Position numbers and translations under genes: made by a program. From positions 186,001 to 250,000 of the forward strand of contig NZ_CP086137.1 in assembly GCF_017565645.3 (NCBI RefSeq): DNA of 64,000 bases, read 5' to 3'. Numbering within the stretch: the first letter of the stretch is position 1; each line of letters opens with the position of its first letter. This document shows positions 7,720 through 48,369 of this stretch, in pieces. The stretch is from Bradyrhizobium barranii subsp. barranii. GTDB taxonomy: Bacteria; Pseudomonadota; Alphaproteobacteria; Rhizobiales; Xanthobacteraceae. The notes under the pieces are model-generated. The model was not told the DNA's origin, made no database searches, and saw only the letters and a program-made list of their open reading frames with translations.

Positions 7720-9174
7720 GTGTTCGAACAGACCTTTAAAAACATTGACGACGTGTTGTGGAAAGAGGCTGGATGCGCCACCGAGCTTGATTATACCGAG
7801 CAAACGTCGTGGATCCTGTTTCTCAAGTACCTTGATGATCTTGAGCGGGCCAATGAGCAAAAGGCCGAGCTTCAGGGCAAGAAATACACTTACATTATTG
7901 ACAGACCGCACCGTTGGTCAGCGTGGGCTGCGCCGAAAAAACGCGACGGGTCTTTTGATCACGACAAGGCGCTGACCGGCGATGACCTCATCGACTATGT
8001 CGATCGCGACCTGTTTCCATATCTGCACAGCTTCAGGGCGCGCGCCGAAGGTTCCAACACGGTCGAATACAAGATTGGCGAAATTTTTGGCGAGATCAAG
8101 AACCGCTTTCGAAGCGGGTACTCGCTGCGTGACGCACTCGAACTGATGGATGGCCTGAGCTTTCGTTCACAAGACCAGAAGCACGAGCTGTCGCATATTT
8201 ACGAAGCCAAGCTCAAAAACATGGGCAATGCGGGCAGGAACGGTGGCGAGTATTACACGCCGCGCCCGCTCATCCGCGCAATGATAAAGGTGGTGAGACC
8301 GGAAATCGGCCAGCGTATCTATGACGGCGCGTGCGGCTCAGCTGGCTTCCTTTGCGAGGCCTATGACTACCTGCGTGCCAAGCCGGACCTGTCGACCAGG
8401 GATCTGAAGACCCTCCAAGAAAGGACATTCTTCGGCAAGGAGAAGAAGAGCCTCGCCTACGTCATCGCGATCATGAACATGATCCTGCACGGTGTCGAGG
8501 CGCCAAATGTCCTGCACATCAACACGCTTGCCGAAAATATCAACGACATTCAGGAGAAGGACCGCTTCGACATTGTCTTGGCCAATCCGCCGTTCGGGGG
8601 CAAGGAGCGCCCGGAGGTCCAGCAGAATTTCCCAATAAAGACCGGCGAAACGGCGTTCCTGTTCCTTCAGCATTTCATCAAGTCGCTAAAGGCCGGTGGC
8701 CGCGCGGCCATCGTCATCAAGAACACCTTCCTGTCAAACACCGACAACGCCTCGGTTGCTCTTCGCAAGGAGCTGTTGGAAGGCTGCAATCTGCACACAG
8801 TGCTGGACATGCCGGGCGGCACGTTTCATGGCGCAGGCGTCAAGACCGTCGTGCTATTCTTCGAGAAGGGCGCGCCCACACGCAAGGTCTGGTTTTACAA
8901 ACTCGATCCCGGCCGCAACCTTGGCAAGACCAATCCGCTCAACGACGACGACCTGAAGGAATTCGTCGCGTTGCAGGCGAAGTTCAAGGACAGCAAGAAT
9001 TCGTGGACGGTCGATGCGAAGAGTGTCGACAGTACGACCTATGACCTCTCGGTGAAGAACCCGAACAAGGCTGGCGAGGCAGCTCTGCGCGATCCAAACG
9101 ACATCATCGTCGAAATGATGGCGCTGGACGCGGAGAATGCGGAGATCCTTGCAGACATCGGGAGGATGCTGTGA
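7720..9174 (+). CDS. hsdM: Type I restriction-modification system, adenine methyltransferase subunit HsdM
   Basis: This 484-residue N6-adenine methyltransferase has an N-terminal HsdM helical domain (residues about 5-145), the GGEYYTPRPL element (175-184), the SAM-binding motif DGACGSAGF (202-210) and the catalytic NPPF (289-292). It forms the M2S modification complex with HsdS. The start is GTG at 7720, preceded by a G-rich stretch; the N-terminal sequence MFEQTFKNIDDVLWK is typical of the family. Its stop overlaps the hsdS start by 4 nt. No hsdR is present nearby. Confidence 0.95.
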   Translation: MFEQTFKNIDDVLWKEAGCATELDYTEQTSWILFLKYLDDLERANEQKAELQGKKYTYIIDRPHRWSAWAAPKKRDGSFDHDKALTGDDLIDYVDRDLFPYLHSFRARAEGSNTVEYKIGEIFGEIKNRFRSGYSLRDALELMDGLSFRSQDQKHELSHIYEAKLKNMGNAGRNGGEYYTPRPLIRAMIKVVRPEIGQRIYDGACGSAGFLCEAYDYLRAKPDLSTRDLKTLQERTFFGKEKKSLAYVIAIMNMILHGVEAPNVLHINTLAENINDIQEKDRFDIVLANPPFGGKERPEVQQNFPIKTGETAFLFLQHFIKSLKAGGRAAIVIKNTFLSNTDNASVALRKELLEGCNLHTVLDMPGGTFHGAGVKTVVLFFEKGAPTRKVWFYKLDPGRNLGKTNPLNDDDLKEFVALQAKFKDSKNSWTVDAKSVDSTTYDLSVKNPNKAGEAALRDPNDIIVEMMALDAENAEILADIGRML

Positions 9175-9698
9175 GGGAAACCTGGCAAACGTCAACACTT
9201 GGGGAAGTGTGCGAGCGCGTGACCGTTGGCCATGTGGGAACTACGTCGCCTTACTATCGCGACGACGGCGTTCTCTTCTTGCGAACTCAGAACGTTGGGG
9301 CGTCCGGTCTGAACTTGGAAACCGTCAAATATATCACTCCCGAGTTTCATGCCTCTCTCAAGAAATCTGAGGTCAAGGGAGGCGACATTTTGATGTCTCG
9401 CGTTATTACCCATTCAGTGCATTGTGCGCTGATCCCGGACGATCTGGGACCAACAAACTGTGCCAACGTCATCTTGGTAAGATCGGGAAAGTTAGTCGTT
9501 CCTGAGTATTTGGCCCACTACATTCGGTCGCCGGAGGCTCAGCGCCACCTGTTGGCAAGGAAGGTAGGTTCTGCCCAGGTGGTAGTGAATACAGCTGTGG
9601 TGCAAAATTGGCCTGTACCGCTTCCGCCCCTCCCTCAACAAAAACGCATCGAGGACTACGACCTTGAGCGCGGCTTCGGAAGTTCCGACTGCCTCTAA
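9171..9698 (+). pseudogene. hsdS: Type I specificity subunit HsdS, truncated after first target domain
   Basis: The GTG at 9171 overlaps the hsdM stop. The product has one target-recognition domain (about residues 5-150) ending in the conserved LPPLPQQKRI that starts the first long helix. After that the sequence becomes DYDLERGFGSSDCL and stops at 175 residues. A normal HsdS has two target domains and about 400 residues. Half-size HsdS proteins can dimerise, but here the conserved helix is also lost, so this is probably a deletion remnant. Confidence 0.88.
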
Positions 9699-25580: not shown

Positions 25581-28569
25581 ATGTCCGTCCTTACGCGAAA
25601 ACTCAAGCTTTCCATCAATCGGAAACTCATCAACAAGAACGAGGGCAACGATAAATCCTTGTTTGCTGAGGGCTGGATCAACAGGTCGTTGACCCCGAAG
25701 CAGCTCGCGGACTCGATCAACAAGGGGATCGCGTACTGCTGCCAACTCGATGGGCTCCGAAAATCGGCGAATTTCCTCTGCTCGGACATCATCTCCGTTG
25801 ATATCGACGGAACGCGCCGCATCGATGAGATGATGTGCGATCCGATCGTCGAGCGCTTCCTGACGATCTTCTACACCACTCCAAGCCACACTAACGAGCA
25901 GCACCGCTTTCGTCTCATCTTCGCGCTGCCGCGAACAATCGATTCTAGGGATGAAATGGTCGCGGCATCCCGAAGCCTGACTTTGCGGCTCAATGGTGAT
26001 CGAGGCGCAACAGATGCGGCTCGCATCTTCTACGGCTCACGCGGCTCCAATCCGCAAATCTTTGACCGTGGCATCGACGCAGCCCTTCTGGACGAACTCA
26101 TCAAGCAAGGGCTGGATACCGATCACAGCGACACGAAGGGTTCGGCTGTAACCGCCAGCTCAGTTTCCAAACTCACCGTTGCCGCAGAACTCCCCATAAA
26201 AACAGGATATGGCAAGACGTTACCGTTCTCACAGATCGATTTCGGTACAGCGGTATGTTGCCCCTTTCATCATGATGAGCACGCAAGCGCGTTCGTCCTC
26301 AAATCGCGCACAGGCACAAGGGGATTGCATTGCTCGACCTGCGCACAGACGTTCTGGCTCGAAGGTACAACAATTCCGTCTTACGATTTCTTCGACTTCG
26401 ACAAACGCGTCCGCGAAGTGAAAGCGTACTTCGACAAGCACCACGATCTCGGACCGTTGAAGGACCTTTTTGTCAACGAAGACCCGATCCACGAGGGATT
26501 GACCGACGCAAACATCGCGATCACCTCGAGCAAGTACCTGACGCTGAATCGCATCAATGACGGTCTCACTCTCATCAAGAGCCCGAAAGGAACAGGAAAG
26601 ACCGAGCGCCTCAGCGCCGTTCTTGACGCCGATCCTGGCAGCGTTCTGCTCATCGGACATCGCGTAGCCCTCATTCGCCAAAGCTGCGCGCGTCTCAAAC
26701 TGGAATGCTATCTTGATTTTGATGGTCCCATTGATCGGCTACGCGTCGGCATCTGCCTCGATAGCCTACAACGACTGCGATCACGCACGGGAACCGCGAA
26801 CATCTTCAAGACTATCATAATTGATGAATCCGAGCAGGTTCTCTCGCATTTTCTTTCACAAACCATGGACTCGGAGGGTCGAGATCGCGAAGCGATATTC
26901 ATCCTATTCAAGATGCTCATACAGCGTGCAAAGCGCGTGATCGCTCTCGACGCCGATTTAAGCTGGCTGACGTTCGAAACGCTAACAAAAATGAGGAATG
27001 AACGACCAGCTCATTCCCCTCCTCCCGCTGCACCGCGCTTAACCCACATCATCCTCAATGACCATCCTGTCGACAAAACAATCGCGATATTCCAATCGGA
27101 AAGTCATCTCCTTGCTGATCTCAAGCAAGCCATCGACAACAAGAAACGCGTCTTTGTTACCTCCAACTCTAAGCGGCGCATCGACAACCTGAACGCCGCC
27201 ATCGCTGCTGACTTTGAGGGAACAGTACGCGGTCTCTTGATTACAAGCGCTACAAAAGACGACCCGCCCGTTAAAGCATTCATCGAAACCCCCAGCAAAC
27301 AGGCTCTTCGGTACAGCGTGATTCTCACGTCACCTTCGCTGGGTACTGGCGTGGACATTGCATTCCCAGATGACGCGCAGGAGATTGATGTCGTGTACGG
27401 CTTTTTCGACGCGTTGATCACGACGCATTTTGATTGCGATCAACAGCTAGCCCGTGTTCGCCATCCAGGCGCTGTCAAAGTCTGGATCAGTCCGCGGAGG
27501 TTCAATTTCGACACCGCCGTAGATGTCATCAGGAAGGATATTCAGGTCAGCAATTCGTACAAAAACTTGCTGGTGGGATACGACGCCCTCGGACGACCCA
27601 CCTATCTCGACGACGATCCGCTTCTCGATATGGCGATCGCTGATCGTGTCGCAGCAACGAGCTTCGAAGAACAATCTAAAAAAGCATTTTCTCGATCTTA
27701 AACGGCATCAGGGATACACCGTCGAATTGATCGATCCAGACGAAACGTTGAACCAAACAGGACGCGATCTGGCGAAGTTGGGCGAACGTCTCATCAAATC
27801 TAAGCGTATGAACGCCCTGCTCCATGCGCGACCGCTTACCTTTCAGGAATTCCAAGAAATCGACGGTCGGCTGTCGGAAAACGAAAAAGTCACAGTCGCG
27901 GAGGAGTGGTCGCGAGAACGAATGTGGTTTGAACTTTTCTACCGCCGACCGCTAACCAGATCGCTGATGAAACTAGACAACAATGGCAAGTACCGCCAAT
28001 CAGTGCTTCGGTTTGAGAACCTTCAAGCATTCGCAAAGAGGACCCACGAAATCGCTGGAATGACTGGCGATTTGCGTTCCAAGCTGGATATTAGCGGTGC
28101 TGCAAAACTCGATAAGCGATTCCGTTTCCTAAAGACCTCGCAGGAAGTTACCCGCGCTATCTTCAATCTGTTGCACCAGACGCCACTGATGAAAGACGGC
28201 AACTGGACGCCGACAACCCTGACCAGTGACGACCTGAAGCCGTTCTCAGCCGCGATATTGAAGCAGAAAGCCATCGTCGAAAACCTCCTCGACTTCGAGG
28301 TCCGCGCCGACGTGCGCTCGAAGCCGATGACCCAGTTAAATCAGCTGCTCAAGCTGGTCGGTTTGAATTGCAAGCCGCTTAAAAAGCAGAAAATTCAGGG
28401 CAAGATCGTCTACCGCTACCAGTTCGATAGCGCAGCTTACAAACGAATGACCGCACTCGTGGAAAAGCGGGCGACGACCAATGCTTGGCGGTCGGTCTAC
28501 GAAATGCACGGCTGGGATCAACAGGAATTGCCGGAAGAGCTGCAAGACAACACCTCCCACAAAAGCTGA
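25581..28569 (+). pseudogene. PrimPol / zinc-finger / SF2-helicase replication protein, one-base frameshift
   Basis: The first frame (25581-27701, 706 residues) has an archaeo-eukaryotic primase core (ISVDIDG at 71-77; TPSHTNEQHRFRLIFALP with His103), a CHC2-like zinc site (CCPFH at 226-230, CSTC at 251-254), then a helicase with Walker A SPKGTGKT (334-341), DEAD-like IIIDESE (412-418) and the arginine-finger-like QQLARVRHPG. The second frame continues with KHFLDLKRHQGYTVELIDPD to 28569. Frames meet at an A6 run near 27680, and removing one A joins them into about 995 residues. The layout matches plasmid or element replication initiators with an origin-binding-protein helicase. Slippage, pseudogenisation or sequencing error could all explain the shift. 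Confidence 0.8.
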
Positions 28570-44959: not shown

Positions 44960-46522
44960 GTGGACAATTTGAAGCGCGCCCAAGAAACGCTGCTGGCCGA
45001 CCAATTCAACTATGGAGAATGGGGCAAGTGTGAATCGCCGACCGCTGCGCGCGACCTTGAAATTTCCAGATTAAAGCCGAATTGCTTCTCGAGTAGCGAA
45101 GCAGCGTTCAGTTTAGTTGCTACGGGAGCTGCTGGTAACGAAGCGATCGCGACCTATTTGGATTGGGTCCAAAAAACGAGGTCTCCGGACGGCTGGTGGC
45201 ACAGTGCAGCGGGTTCCAAAGCGCCCAGCCAAAATGCTCCTGCTTGGGTACGTAATGTGCGCCACACGGCCATAGGAATCGACGTCCGCATTCTGGCAAA
45301 GCAATTCGACGGCGACGATTTGCGCAATATTGGGCCGTTGATCGCGTTGCAACTCTCGAACGGTGCCTTCCCGCAGTTTTCCGGCGGAGCCGCAGATTTG
45401 TGGTCTACCCTCTATGTTCTGAATCTTCTCATTACGGTGACCCACAACGATGAGGCTTGTCGAATTTCTCGTCCATCTAATGTCGTTCCGCGTTCATGGG
45501 AAGCGGAGCTACGTACCAAGATCGAGAAGAGCAGAGCTTGGCTCACAGACCAAGTTAAGGACGGCAATCATTGGGAGCTTCCCGACACTGATGCGGGCTG
45601 GGTAACGCAAGCTATTGCCGTCGAAATCGGAGCCCACCTTGCCCGAACTCGACCTGACGTATGCCCTGCGATCGGCCAGTTCTTGCTCGATTTGACTGAT
45701 CAAAACAATCCGAAGACGCTCTGGGCTCTTCTATGCGTGTGGATCGGCCTGAGTGCGAGCCAGCAATTGGAGCTGAAATCTCGCTTGGCGAAGTTCGTCT
45801 ACAGTGATCAAAGCGACACGCTGAGCATGGCGTGCTCCTGTCGTGTCGTTGCTTGTGATTGTGACCCTCTGTTTGTTCAGTACTACTTTGACGCGGCGCA
45901 TGGGCATTCAGCAGCGCTTCCGCGATGGGGCGGGTGGGACCGGACAGAATATGGCAAATGGAATGTGCTACGTGCGAACGCATCGCCAGCCGGCAATGCT
46001 ATGGCTCACGGCGCCGTCAGCACAAAAGCTGATTTATGGCTCACTGTCTCGGGATTGCTGAACGTTTATAAGGAAGGCATCGAAAAATCAGGCGATTGGC
46101 GCATACTTTGGACGGATTCGCATAGTCATACCGACGAAGCCGGTATCCAACGTCACTTTATGAGTGTTGCACGGGCCTTGGCTAAAAGCTGGGGCATTGC
46201 AGCGATACGAGAACCGGATACCGGTACTGGGCCAGTCGATTCTGAGTTTTCAAATGGATATGTCGCGCGCATTCATGTTGAGTTCAAGCGTATGGATCAT
46301 ACGAGAATCCAACACGGGCTAATGAGCCAACTGCCGTCGTATATGCAATCGGACGGCGTCGACTCCGGTATTTTTGTTTGCGTTGGTTTCGACGACGATA
46401 GCGAGGATCGTTATAGTCGGCTTGTGCTGCCCGCGCGTGATGCGGCCCGCTCGGCGAACTCCAATATCTGGCTCGAAACTATATATATCGATGCGCGTCG
46501 CCGTTCGAGCGCGTCGAACTGA
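44960..46522 (+). CDS. Alpha/alpha-toroid (terpene-cyclase-like) domain fused to PD-(D/E)XK nuclease
   Basis: This 520-residue protein starts GTG 44960. Residues about 1-280 form repeated helix pairs with DGWWHS, NGAFPQF and LPDTDAGWVTQA, the pattern of the squalene-cyclase/prenyltransferase toroid. A Cys-rich stretch (ACSCRVVACDCD, 291-302) and linker follow. Residues about 385-515 hold a PD-(D/E)XK-type core: Glu393 in a helix (TDEAGIQRHFMSVARALAKS), Asp427 in GPVDSEF, then HVEFK with Glu441 and Lys443, and GLMSQLPSYMQ. A nuclease behind a sensing toroid suggests a defence effector. No signal peptide. Convergent with an ATPase gene. I know no described system with this fusion. Confidence 0.75.
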   Translation: MDNLKRAQETLLADQFNYGEWGKCESPTAARDLEISRLKPNCFSSSEAAFSLVATGAAGNEAIATYLDWVQKTRSPDGWWHSAAGSKAPSQNAPAWVRNVRHTAIGIDVRILAKQFDGDDLRNIGPLIALQLSNGAFPQFSGGAADLWSTLYVLNLLITVTHNDEACRISRPSNVVPRSWEAELRTKIEKSRAWLTDQVKDGNHWELPDTDAGWVTQAIAVEIGAHLARTRPDVCPAIGQFLLDLTDQNNPKTLWALLCVWIGLSASQQLELKSRLAKFVYSDQSDTLSMACSCRVVACDCDPLFVQYYFDAAHGHSAALPRWGGWDRTEYGKWNVLRANASPAGNAMAHGAVSTKADLWLTVSGLLNVYKEGIEKSGDWRILWTDSHSHTDEAGIQRHFMSVARALAKSWGIAAIREPDTGTGPVDSEFSNGYVARIHVEFKRMDHTRIQHGLMSQLPSYMQSDGVDSGIFVCVGFDDDSEDRYSRLVLPARDAARSANSNIWLETIYIDARRRSSASN

Positions 46523-46681: not shown

Positions 46682-48097
46682 TCATGCCGGAAGCAGCCGG
46701 GTGCACTCTTCAACGACATATTCGGGAACAATTTCAAATCTGTGTGGATTGAGCTGCATCACATACTCGTTCTCAATATGATAGGACTCATTGATGAATT
46801 TCCTGATCACGTCGTGATCATGCTCGCTACCCAGGATACGGAAAAGCTGAATCTTCTCGTAACCGACCGTGGTGGCATGGAACTTGGCTTTTATTGTCGC
46901 TACGCTCTTTGTGTCGGCGATCAGAATGTCATAATCGAACCCCGGCAAATGAACACAAATCTTGCTTTCGGCCTCGGCCTTTTCAGAAGCCGTCATAGGC
47001 CGGTTATCGGTTGCGCTTTGTATCGTGGGAACATCTCGCCGCTTGAAGAGGCTTGCGAGAAGATTGTATTCCAGCCCCATATCGTCTTGTAGCTCGAACT
47101 GGCGTCGAAGATAGATGGCCTGGAGCAGAGGATCGCTCAGCAACGCTATGTTGTCCTTACAAATCTTTGCAAAGGTCTGGATATCGTCTCGCTGTATTGG
47201 CACTTCGCTGATCACGCCAGCGCGAGATGAAAGAAACGCGGCGGACGGTCGGGCTGCCTGAAAGACGCTGCTCGTGCTCTTGATGACATCAATCGCCGGT
47301 TCGATGTCATGCGTCAGCATCAGCGTCGTCTTGTCTCTTAAGCTGGCTTTGATGTGACCGACCGCGCTCGCATCGTACTCTTTCTCAACGGCAAGTGCTG
47401 TATCCTTTTTCCCGGCTTCGGCCAGGGTGCTCGAGCAATAGGGGCAATTATCGCCCAGCGAGAGGAACTCGTTACCCTTGATCTGCCAGGAGATCCACTT
47501 AGCAGGCTCTTTGCTCTTGATGAATGTTTCGAACGGCTTCAGCACATTCGGGATGTTCGCAATCTTGTTTCCGGAACCGAAGGCCTTGTGGATCTTGCTG
47601 TTCTTCGCCAACGCACCGCTCTTAGACGGCTTACCGAAGGCCTCCCGCAACTCCATCAAGTCTTTGACGACTTGCCCGATATCAGCATTGTCCGCAAATG
47701 CTTGTCGAATGCCAGACAGCAGGTCATCGATCTCGGCCAGCTCAGTCAGGTATTCCGGCGTTCTGATGAAGATGTCAAAACTGTTTTTTACGACCTCGTC
47801 TTTCTGAAAGACGAATTGGTCGACATAGTCTTCATCGAACACCAGGGCAGATCTGAAGCTATCCGCACCTTCAACAGTTGGAGTTCCGGCGCCCGGAGTG
47901 CCACGATGCTTAAAGGGGATGAGGTCTTTGATGGAACCGTCGGCCTTGATATGGCTCACAATGGCTCGCGCCAGCGAGCTCTTGCCAAGCCCGTTAGGTC
48001 CGTACTTGATGTTGAGGGCCTGCTCCGTGATGCTGATCGCGGCCAGGTCTACGCTGTTACAGTTGGAAATCTTGATATTCAGAACAGCCAAGCTCAC
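46682..48097 (-). pseudogene. AAA_13/RloC-like ABC-type ATPase with internal deletion
   Basis: The 471-residue frame begins AVLNIKISNCNSVDLAAISI with Walker A GPNGLGKS (33-40), a FDEDYVDQFVFQKDEVVKN segment and a zinc-hook-like CPYC. Near residue 225 it passes abruptly from ...VGHIKA to SLRDKTTLMLTHDIEP. In intact relatives that H-loop segment follows the ABC signature and Walker B DDP, which are absent here. Thus an in-frame deletion probably removed the coiled coil, signature and Walker B, and ATP hydrolysis is unlikely. Start: GTG 48097 overlaps the upstream stop (GTGA); TTG 48091 has better AGGAG spacing. Confidence 0.72.
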
Positions 48098-48369
48098 GTC
48101 TCCTGTTGATAGGTGACCTTGCGGACGCTTTCTCGGCTTGGATCGGGCGCGTACTTGCCACTGTCCAAACCAAAGCTCTTGCCGCGGTTTACGTCGACTA
48201 ACCGAACGCTGCACTGCGGCCCTTTAGGTGGCGTCTCCGCCGTTGTCATACCACCCGTGACGGCAAAAGGAAGCGGAGTGGCAGCGTTATCCAAGGTCGG
48301 GCAGACGGCCGGCGCCAAGTCAGACGACCGAGCGCGAAGTCCGCAGCACGCGCTTGCGTGCGGGGCCAC
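48094..48369 (-). CDS. Possible partner gene of the ATPase, 3' end
   Basis: The minus frame ending at 48094 reads QCSVRLVDVNRGKSFGLDSG and then YAPDPSRESVRKVTYQQET. Its TGA overlaps the ATPase GTG by 4 nt, which supports a coupled upstream gene. The 5' limit is uncertain; upstream sequence degrades into low-complexity residues, so this may be only the tail of a deleted gene. Family unknown. Confidence 0.35.
   Translation of the reverse strand: MAPHASACCGLRARSSDLAPAVCPTLDNAATPLPFAVTGGMTTAETPPKGPQCSVRLVDVNRGKSFGLDSGKYAPDPSRESVRKVTYQQET

Follow-up and report, generated by a model that had tools for sequence, protein, structure and literature searches.

The window, a stretch of 64,000 nucleotides from Bradyrhizobium barranii subsp. 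barranii, is part of a contig of 317,868 bases. On the forward strand at 44960..46522 lies a gene with a GTG start that encodes a protein of 520 residues, alignable over its full length with two relatives, P0002 and P0003. Its product is modelled as an alpha/alpha toroid domain (44960..45982, residues about 1-341) followed by a PD-(D/E)XK nuclease domain (46022..46519, residues about 355-520). The open reading frame is intact, and both it and the nuclease domain occur just once in the 11.4-Mb genome; a decayed gene is ruled out by the full-length frame relative to P0002 and the conserved residues found there. The observation of this toroid-nuclease protein is confirmed: it is rare and well formed, and its first half is unusual.

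The neighbourhood of the gene in the window is transposon-shuffled. Just upstream, the 3' portion of an IS256/Mutator-type element shares 95-99% identity with copies carried by Bradyrhizobium plasmids. Transposase-like ORFs are numerous in the window; Pfam verified one of them and the rest were judged by eye. The convergent neighbour (46682..48214, reverse strand), which shares no operon with the toroid-nuclease gene and is counted here as a neighbour only, encodes an ATPase of Pfam type AAA_13 that matches the PADLOC family PDC-S06. Compared with a 698-residue relative on the B. elkanii plasmid pBel61, it lacks residues 247-473, an in-frame gap of 227 residues with both ends of the protein kept and flanks of 65% and 70% identity. 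Two further ORFs, taken as the others that the sequence-only reading had described as defence-like, gave no Pfam match. The toroid-nuclease protein itself matched no PADLOC model at E<=1. Elsewhere in the window, a Type I R-M hsdM gene precedes a short hsdS of 175 residues with one Methylase_S match, truncated in appearance (7720-9698, forward strand). An ORF of 706 residues with a Herpes_ori_bp-type match (E 1.2e-6) is overlapped in another frame by one of 348 residues (25581-28569, forward strand), and the pair is possibly one helicase-like gene split over two frames.

Searching with the whole protein retrieved P0002 (70% identity) and P0003 (37%), and repeating the search with the alignment of these two found nothing further. 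The toroid alone retrieved five more relatives, P0004-P0008, making a family of eight proteins, each a single-member cluster in a database 5.8 billion strong; about 8,000 candidates were scored in each protein search, and a few per genome in the genome searches, and absences are limited accordingly. P0005 stops at 413 residues, without the nuclease; the first helix pair is missing from P0008 and the last strand from P0007. The fusion, for which a search among homologues had been proposed, is kept as a unit across the diverged family, down to about 32% identity. The precomputed label PF28130 is attached to seven of the eight proteins, the nuclease-less P0005 being the one without it, and probably spans the nuclease half only; the Pfam search performed here did not report it for the toroid-nuclease protein.

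All the E...D...(D/E)-x-K active-site residues of the PD-(D/E)XK superfamily are found in the window protein, encoded on the forward strand: E393, the acidic residue of the first core helix (46136..46138), D427 of GxGPVD (46238..46240) and the (D/E)XK motif E441-F-K443 (46280..46288). All seven fused proteins long enough to include these catalytic residues keep them, as do nearly all members of a set of 51 nuclease domains; E393, Q397, E418, G424-P-V-D427, E441, F442 and K443 are identical across the seven nuclease-bearing toroid proteins. In the structure model, helix 393-410, strands 414-417, 428-431 and 437-444, helix 450-464 and strand 469-476 give a predicted order, helix-strand-strand-strand-helix-strand, that fits the superfamily core, with block means of pLDDT mostly at 80-90 and falling to 65-67 at residues 411-430. 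Both folds that the sequence-only reading had placed in one 520-residue chain are supported by structure prediction and Foldseek rather than replaced by unrelated ones, and the Glu393, Asp427, Glu441, Lys443 pattern it had picked out is conserved. The domain is predicted to perform metal-dependent cleavage of nucleic acid.

Matches to the nuclease half in other collections are of varying quality. The C-terminal domain matches phrog_30194, to which no function is assigned, with an E value of 1.1e-21. Among the best 50 Foldseek rows from the PDB, one was taken as a match to the nuclease half, SfsA (E 0.088, 165 columns), a protein of this fold. Among viral models, a 'Restriction endonuclease' came at rank 6 (probability 1.00, E 0.044), beneath rows with poor TM-scores; the best 50 VIA rows were taken up by toroids, leaving the nuclease half without a placement of its own. 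The best PDB sequence match of the nuclease profile, SLFN14 (E 0.016), covers just 50 positions and was not counted as evidence. In most nuclease domains, whether from the toroid family or the DPFL family described below, a DAR-like motif is followed by a closing (S/G)AS(K/R)-type tail, and position S519 is serine in all 45 non-gap rows among the 51 domains.

Computed structure comparisons assign the modelled N-terminal half to the alpha/alpha toroids of the squalene-cyclase/complement-TED class. Its conserved motifs, all on the forward strand, are a QW-like loop, DGWW (residues 77-80, 45188..45199), in which G78 and W80 are invariant in all eight proteins, N99-x-R-H-T-A-x-G-x-D108 (45254..45283), which opens the second inner helix, the one that has the lowest mean entropy of the toroid helices (0.57 bits), and W148-x-T-x-Y-V-x-N-L156 (45401..45427), a second strongly conserved inner-helix motif. 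With helices assigned as inner or outer by their alternation in the structure model, mean entropy is 1.06 bits for inner helices against 1.61 bits for outer ones (Mann-Whitney p 1.2e-7); this is no proof of a ligand, since in every fold of this kind the inner helices are the more buried ones. A test for concentration of invariant residues on one face gave a weak result (36/162 versus 24/179, p 0.023), which is not significant for polar residues alone (p 0.17). The suggestion that the toroid senses a ligand draws on the inner-helix conservation.

The DxDD motif of class II terpene cyclases is absent from seven of the eight toroid proteins, the window protein having one unconserved DGDD at 117-120, and the CGEQ thioester motif of complement/A2M TED domains occurs in none of the eight. 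An active terpene cyclase or thioester domain was rejected on the absence of these motifs. The link to isoprenoids drawn in the sequence-only reading therefore survives as a likeness of fold and a weak resemblance of sequence, and not in the motifs. Complement TED domains are among the top rows of the Foldseek PDB search, and YfhM, counted with the complement and alpha-2-macroglobulin TED proteins, is matched at E 0.0075.

The nuclease half aligns with a family of sister nucleases (hhalign 99.7%, E 2.5e-26, 218 columns), and both sister proteins scanned against PADLOC match PDC-M36A (E 9.5e-20 and 5e-7). By contrast, a toroid in the N-terminus of this sister family is ruled out, as hhalign gave the toroid half a probability of 0.1% and the toroid HMM matched no sister ORF. 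Among 45 distinct nuclease-domain ORFs, gathered with nuclease and DPFL queries and so not giving population frequencies, 39 have a DPFL-type N-terminus, one has a toroid (that of the window) and the remaining five are short or without assignment (L018, L023, L028, an L067 piece and L079). In a tree of 47 nuclease domains, a supported branch (98/89) sets the seven borne by toroid proteins apart; the tree is unrooted and omits four short domains, and the position of the toroid clade beside the long rows L018 and L027 is uncertain. As the nuclease half matches the sister family, the toroid half does not and the toroid copies form one clade, module exchange is indicated, and these sequence computations show a single exchange of N-termini between the toroid and DPFL forms. 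We infer that the toroid replaced the N-terminal half in the commoner PDC-M36A-like nuclease family, a direction that the tree itself does not give. A further ORF, L066 5570-7000 (forward strand), has a DPFL-type N-terminus and a C-terminal half not matched by the nuclease profile, which suggests exchange of the other half too.

The toroid form has an accessory distribution. A 16-domain nuclease profile detected the domain in 11 of 297 genomes of the host's order, and the full toroid-nuclease profile matched 18 of 242 genomes of the genus, the window's own being included in both counts. All genus matches outside the own genome start at profile position 307 or later and none of the genus loci matched the toroid profile, so that among these 242 genomes the toroid form is present only in the window's own; a genome of the same species gave no match. 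Applied to 337 genomes of the class, the toroid profile found seven other matches, one a frame of 1,616 residues and six with D-x-D-D-T-A, the latter taken to be squalene-hopene cyclases. A 117-residue frame at L008 (E 2.2e-4), matching about 53 residues of the toroid with no nuclease nearby, was dropped as probably due to chance. Plasmids searched with P0001, P0004 and P0006 gave nuclease-half matches only, none covering 80%, and two peptide-pattern scans of GTDB genome contigs found no relative. Among 50,697 phage records there was no match for the window protein, and none for a sister protein, and toroid-family patterns found no relative in viral contigs; on these searches a phage origin was rejected.

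Sister genes lie on plasmids, some of them conjugative, and their settings are mixed. On two Paenarthrobacter plasmids (L011 and L012, 1066-8441), a Type IIG R-M/methylase gene, a DEAD/DEAH helicase gene and a GIY-YIG nuclease gene are followed by the DPFL-type PD-(D/E)XK nuclease gene, a four-gene run that may be a multi-gene defence system. A Rhodobacter plasmid carries a Dsr1-type SIR2 gene and then the sister gene, with an IetA-like ATPase gene nearby; other plasmid stretches have toxin-antitoxin genes near the sister gene (Nitrosospira), an AbiEii-type gene some 6 kb away (Sinorhizobium) or AAA ATPase genes (Janthinobacterium). No clear defence gene was found in the sister stretches of Roseomonas, Calothrix and a Bradyrhizobium fragment beside TonB genes. 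Members of the sister family are also found in 19 viral contigs. When the six nearest ORFs of each of 13 sister genes (78 in all) were compared with PADLOC at E<=1e-10, 66 families were matched, 31 of them by one methyltransferase, against 27 for control ORFs of the same genomes (66 ORFs, 11 loci), of which 22 of the 25 listed are GajB models, probably reflecting one helicase. Controls at a twelfth locus (the only pick being a 5,226-residue frame) and a thirteenth (2,947 bases) were left out, and the families listed had one member each, making proteins indistinguishable in that output; the survey is at most weakly suggestive.

The reading favoured here, with slightly better than even confidence, is of a single-chain nuclease with an intact PD-(D/E)XK domain, formed by N-terminal exchange, in which binding by the ring controls cleavage directed against phages or plasmids. 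The conserved cavity of the toroid would bind a small-molecule ligand, or else some component of an invader or of its nucleic acid; binding would release or direct the nuclease, which would then cut DNA in a metal-dependent manner. A sensor or targeting role is best argued from the module exchange and the inner-helix conservation. The defence role is proposed by analogy with the sister nucleases, because the gene neighbourhood is readable only for the window's toroid copy, which has PDC-S06 next door and is otherwise transposon-shuffled; here the argument is at its weakest. The earlier suggestion of a defence effector draws indirect support from the PDC-M36A matches, the Type IIG R-M, Dsr1-type SIR2 and IetA-like neighbours and the viral contigs, and is weakened by the several sister loci lacking a clear defence neighbour and by the phage records, none of which matched. 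A more specific version, that a squalene-cyclase-type toroid came to serve an immune nuclease as its sensor, its cavity perceiving an infection-linked molecule and triggering DNA cleavage by the same chain, is rather doubtful; candidates for this molecule would be an isoprenoid or envelope lipid signal and the sugar carried by a hypermodified phage base.

The toroid might instead be a rigid scaffold binding DNA, RNA or protein for target recognition or dimerisation, with the protein acting as a stand-alone restriction-like nuclease. The complement TED domains in the top Foldseek rows and the position of the charged invariants R31, K39, R74 and R101 in loops and helix ends agree with this, but the most conserved elements are helices that, as assigned by alternation in the model, face the inside of the ring, and the scaffold is a possible though doubtful alternative. 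That the toroid is an enzyme processing a terpenoid or sugar substrate, with the nuclease as partner activity, would accord with the enzyme names borne by nearly all of the best 50 VIA rows (cyclases, GH105, GH76, GH8, epimerases) and with the conserved R101, H102, D108, Y152 and E222, which could make an active site; the unconserved DxDD and missing CGEQ make this very unlikely. A role in DNA repair, or in plasmid or IS upkeep rather than defence, would suit a gene carried on the 317,868-base contig among transposase genes and sister genes on plasmids, some without clear defence neighbours, yet it appears unlikely, as defence is the better fit to the rarity, the patchiness and the matching of the sister N-terminus to PDC-M36A.

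Among the matches listed from the open full-text literature (5.39 million papers), covering titles and the starts of abstracts with subscription papers outside its scope, no description of a toroid-nuclease fusion was found. In passages of PMC12839542, PMC8195603, PMC10853773 and PMC7159879, 'toroid' denotes ATPase or ring assemblies around DNA, and passages of PMC13092281 contain no toroid, terpene, prenyl or squalene words. If the favoured reading is true, this conserved nuclease fusion would add the toroid fold to the sensor domains of immunity, and the single chain would make the ligand of the ring directly testable. The results also indicate that, in a catalogued candidate defence family, the half joined to the nuclease is subject to exchange.

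The general kind of protein, a recognition or sensor domain joined to a PD-(D/E)XK nuclease, is already known. The known toroids of this fold, judged by the fold matches, are cyclases, prenyltransferase subunits, sugar-active enzymes and complement domains. Squalene-hopene cyclases share the alpha/alpha toroid fold with the toroid-nuclease family, which lacks their conserved DxDD; furthermore, squalene-hopene and oxidosqualene cyclases have two toroids, whereas the window protein has one, fused to a nuclease. The TED domains of complement C3d/C4d and alpha-2-macroglobulin are of the same toroid class, and those of complement act through surface binding, but all eight members of the toroid-nuclease family are without CGEQ and the family is distinguished by its fusion to a nuclease. 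The PDC-M36A-like ('DPFL') proteins, whose nuclease half resembles phrog_30194, share with the window protein the nuclease domain, its catalytic residues and a similar SAS(K/R)-type tail, while their N-terminal domain is another one, for which no link to the toroid was detected.
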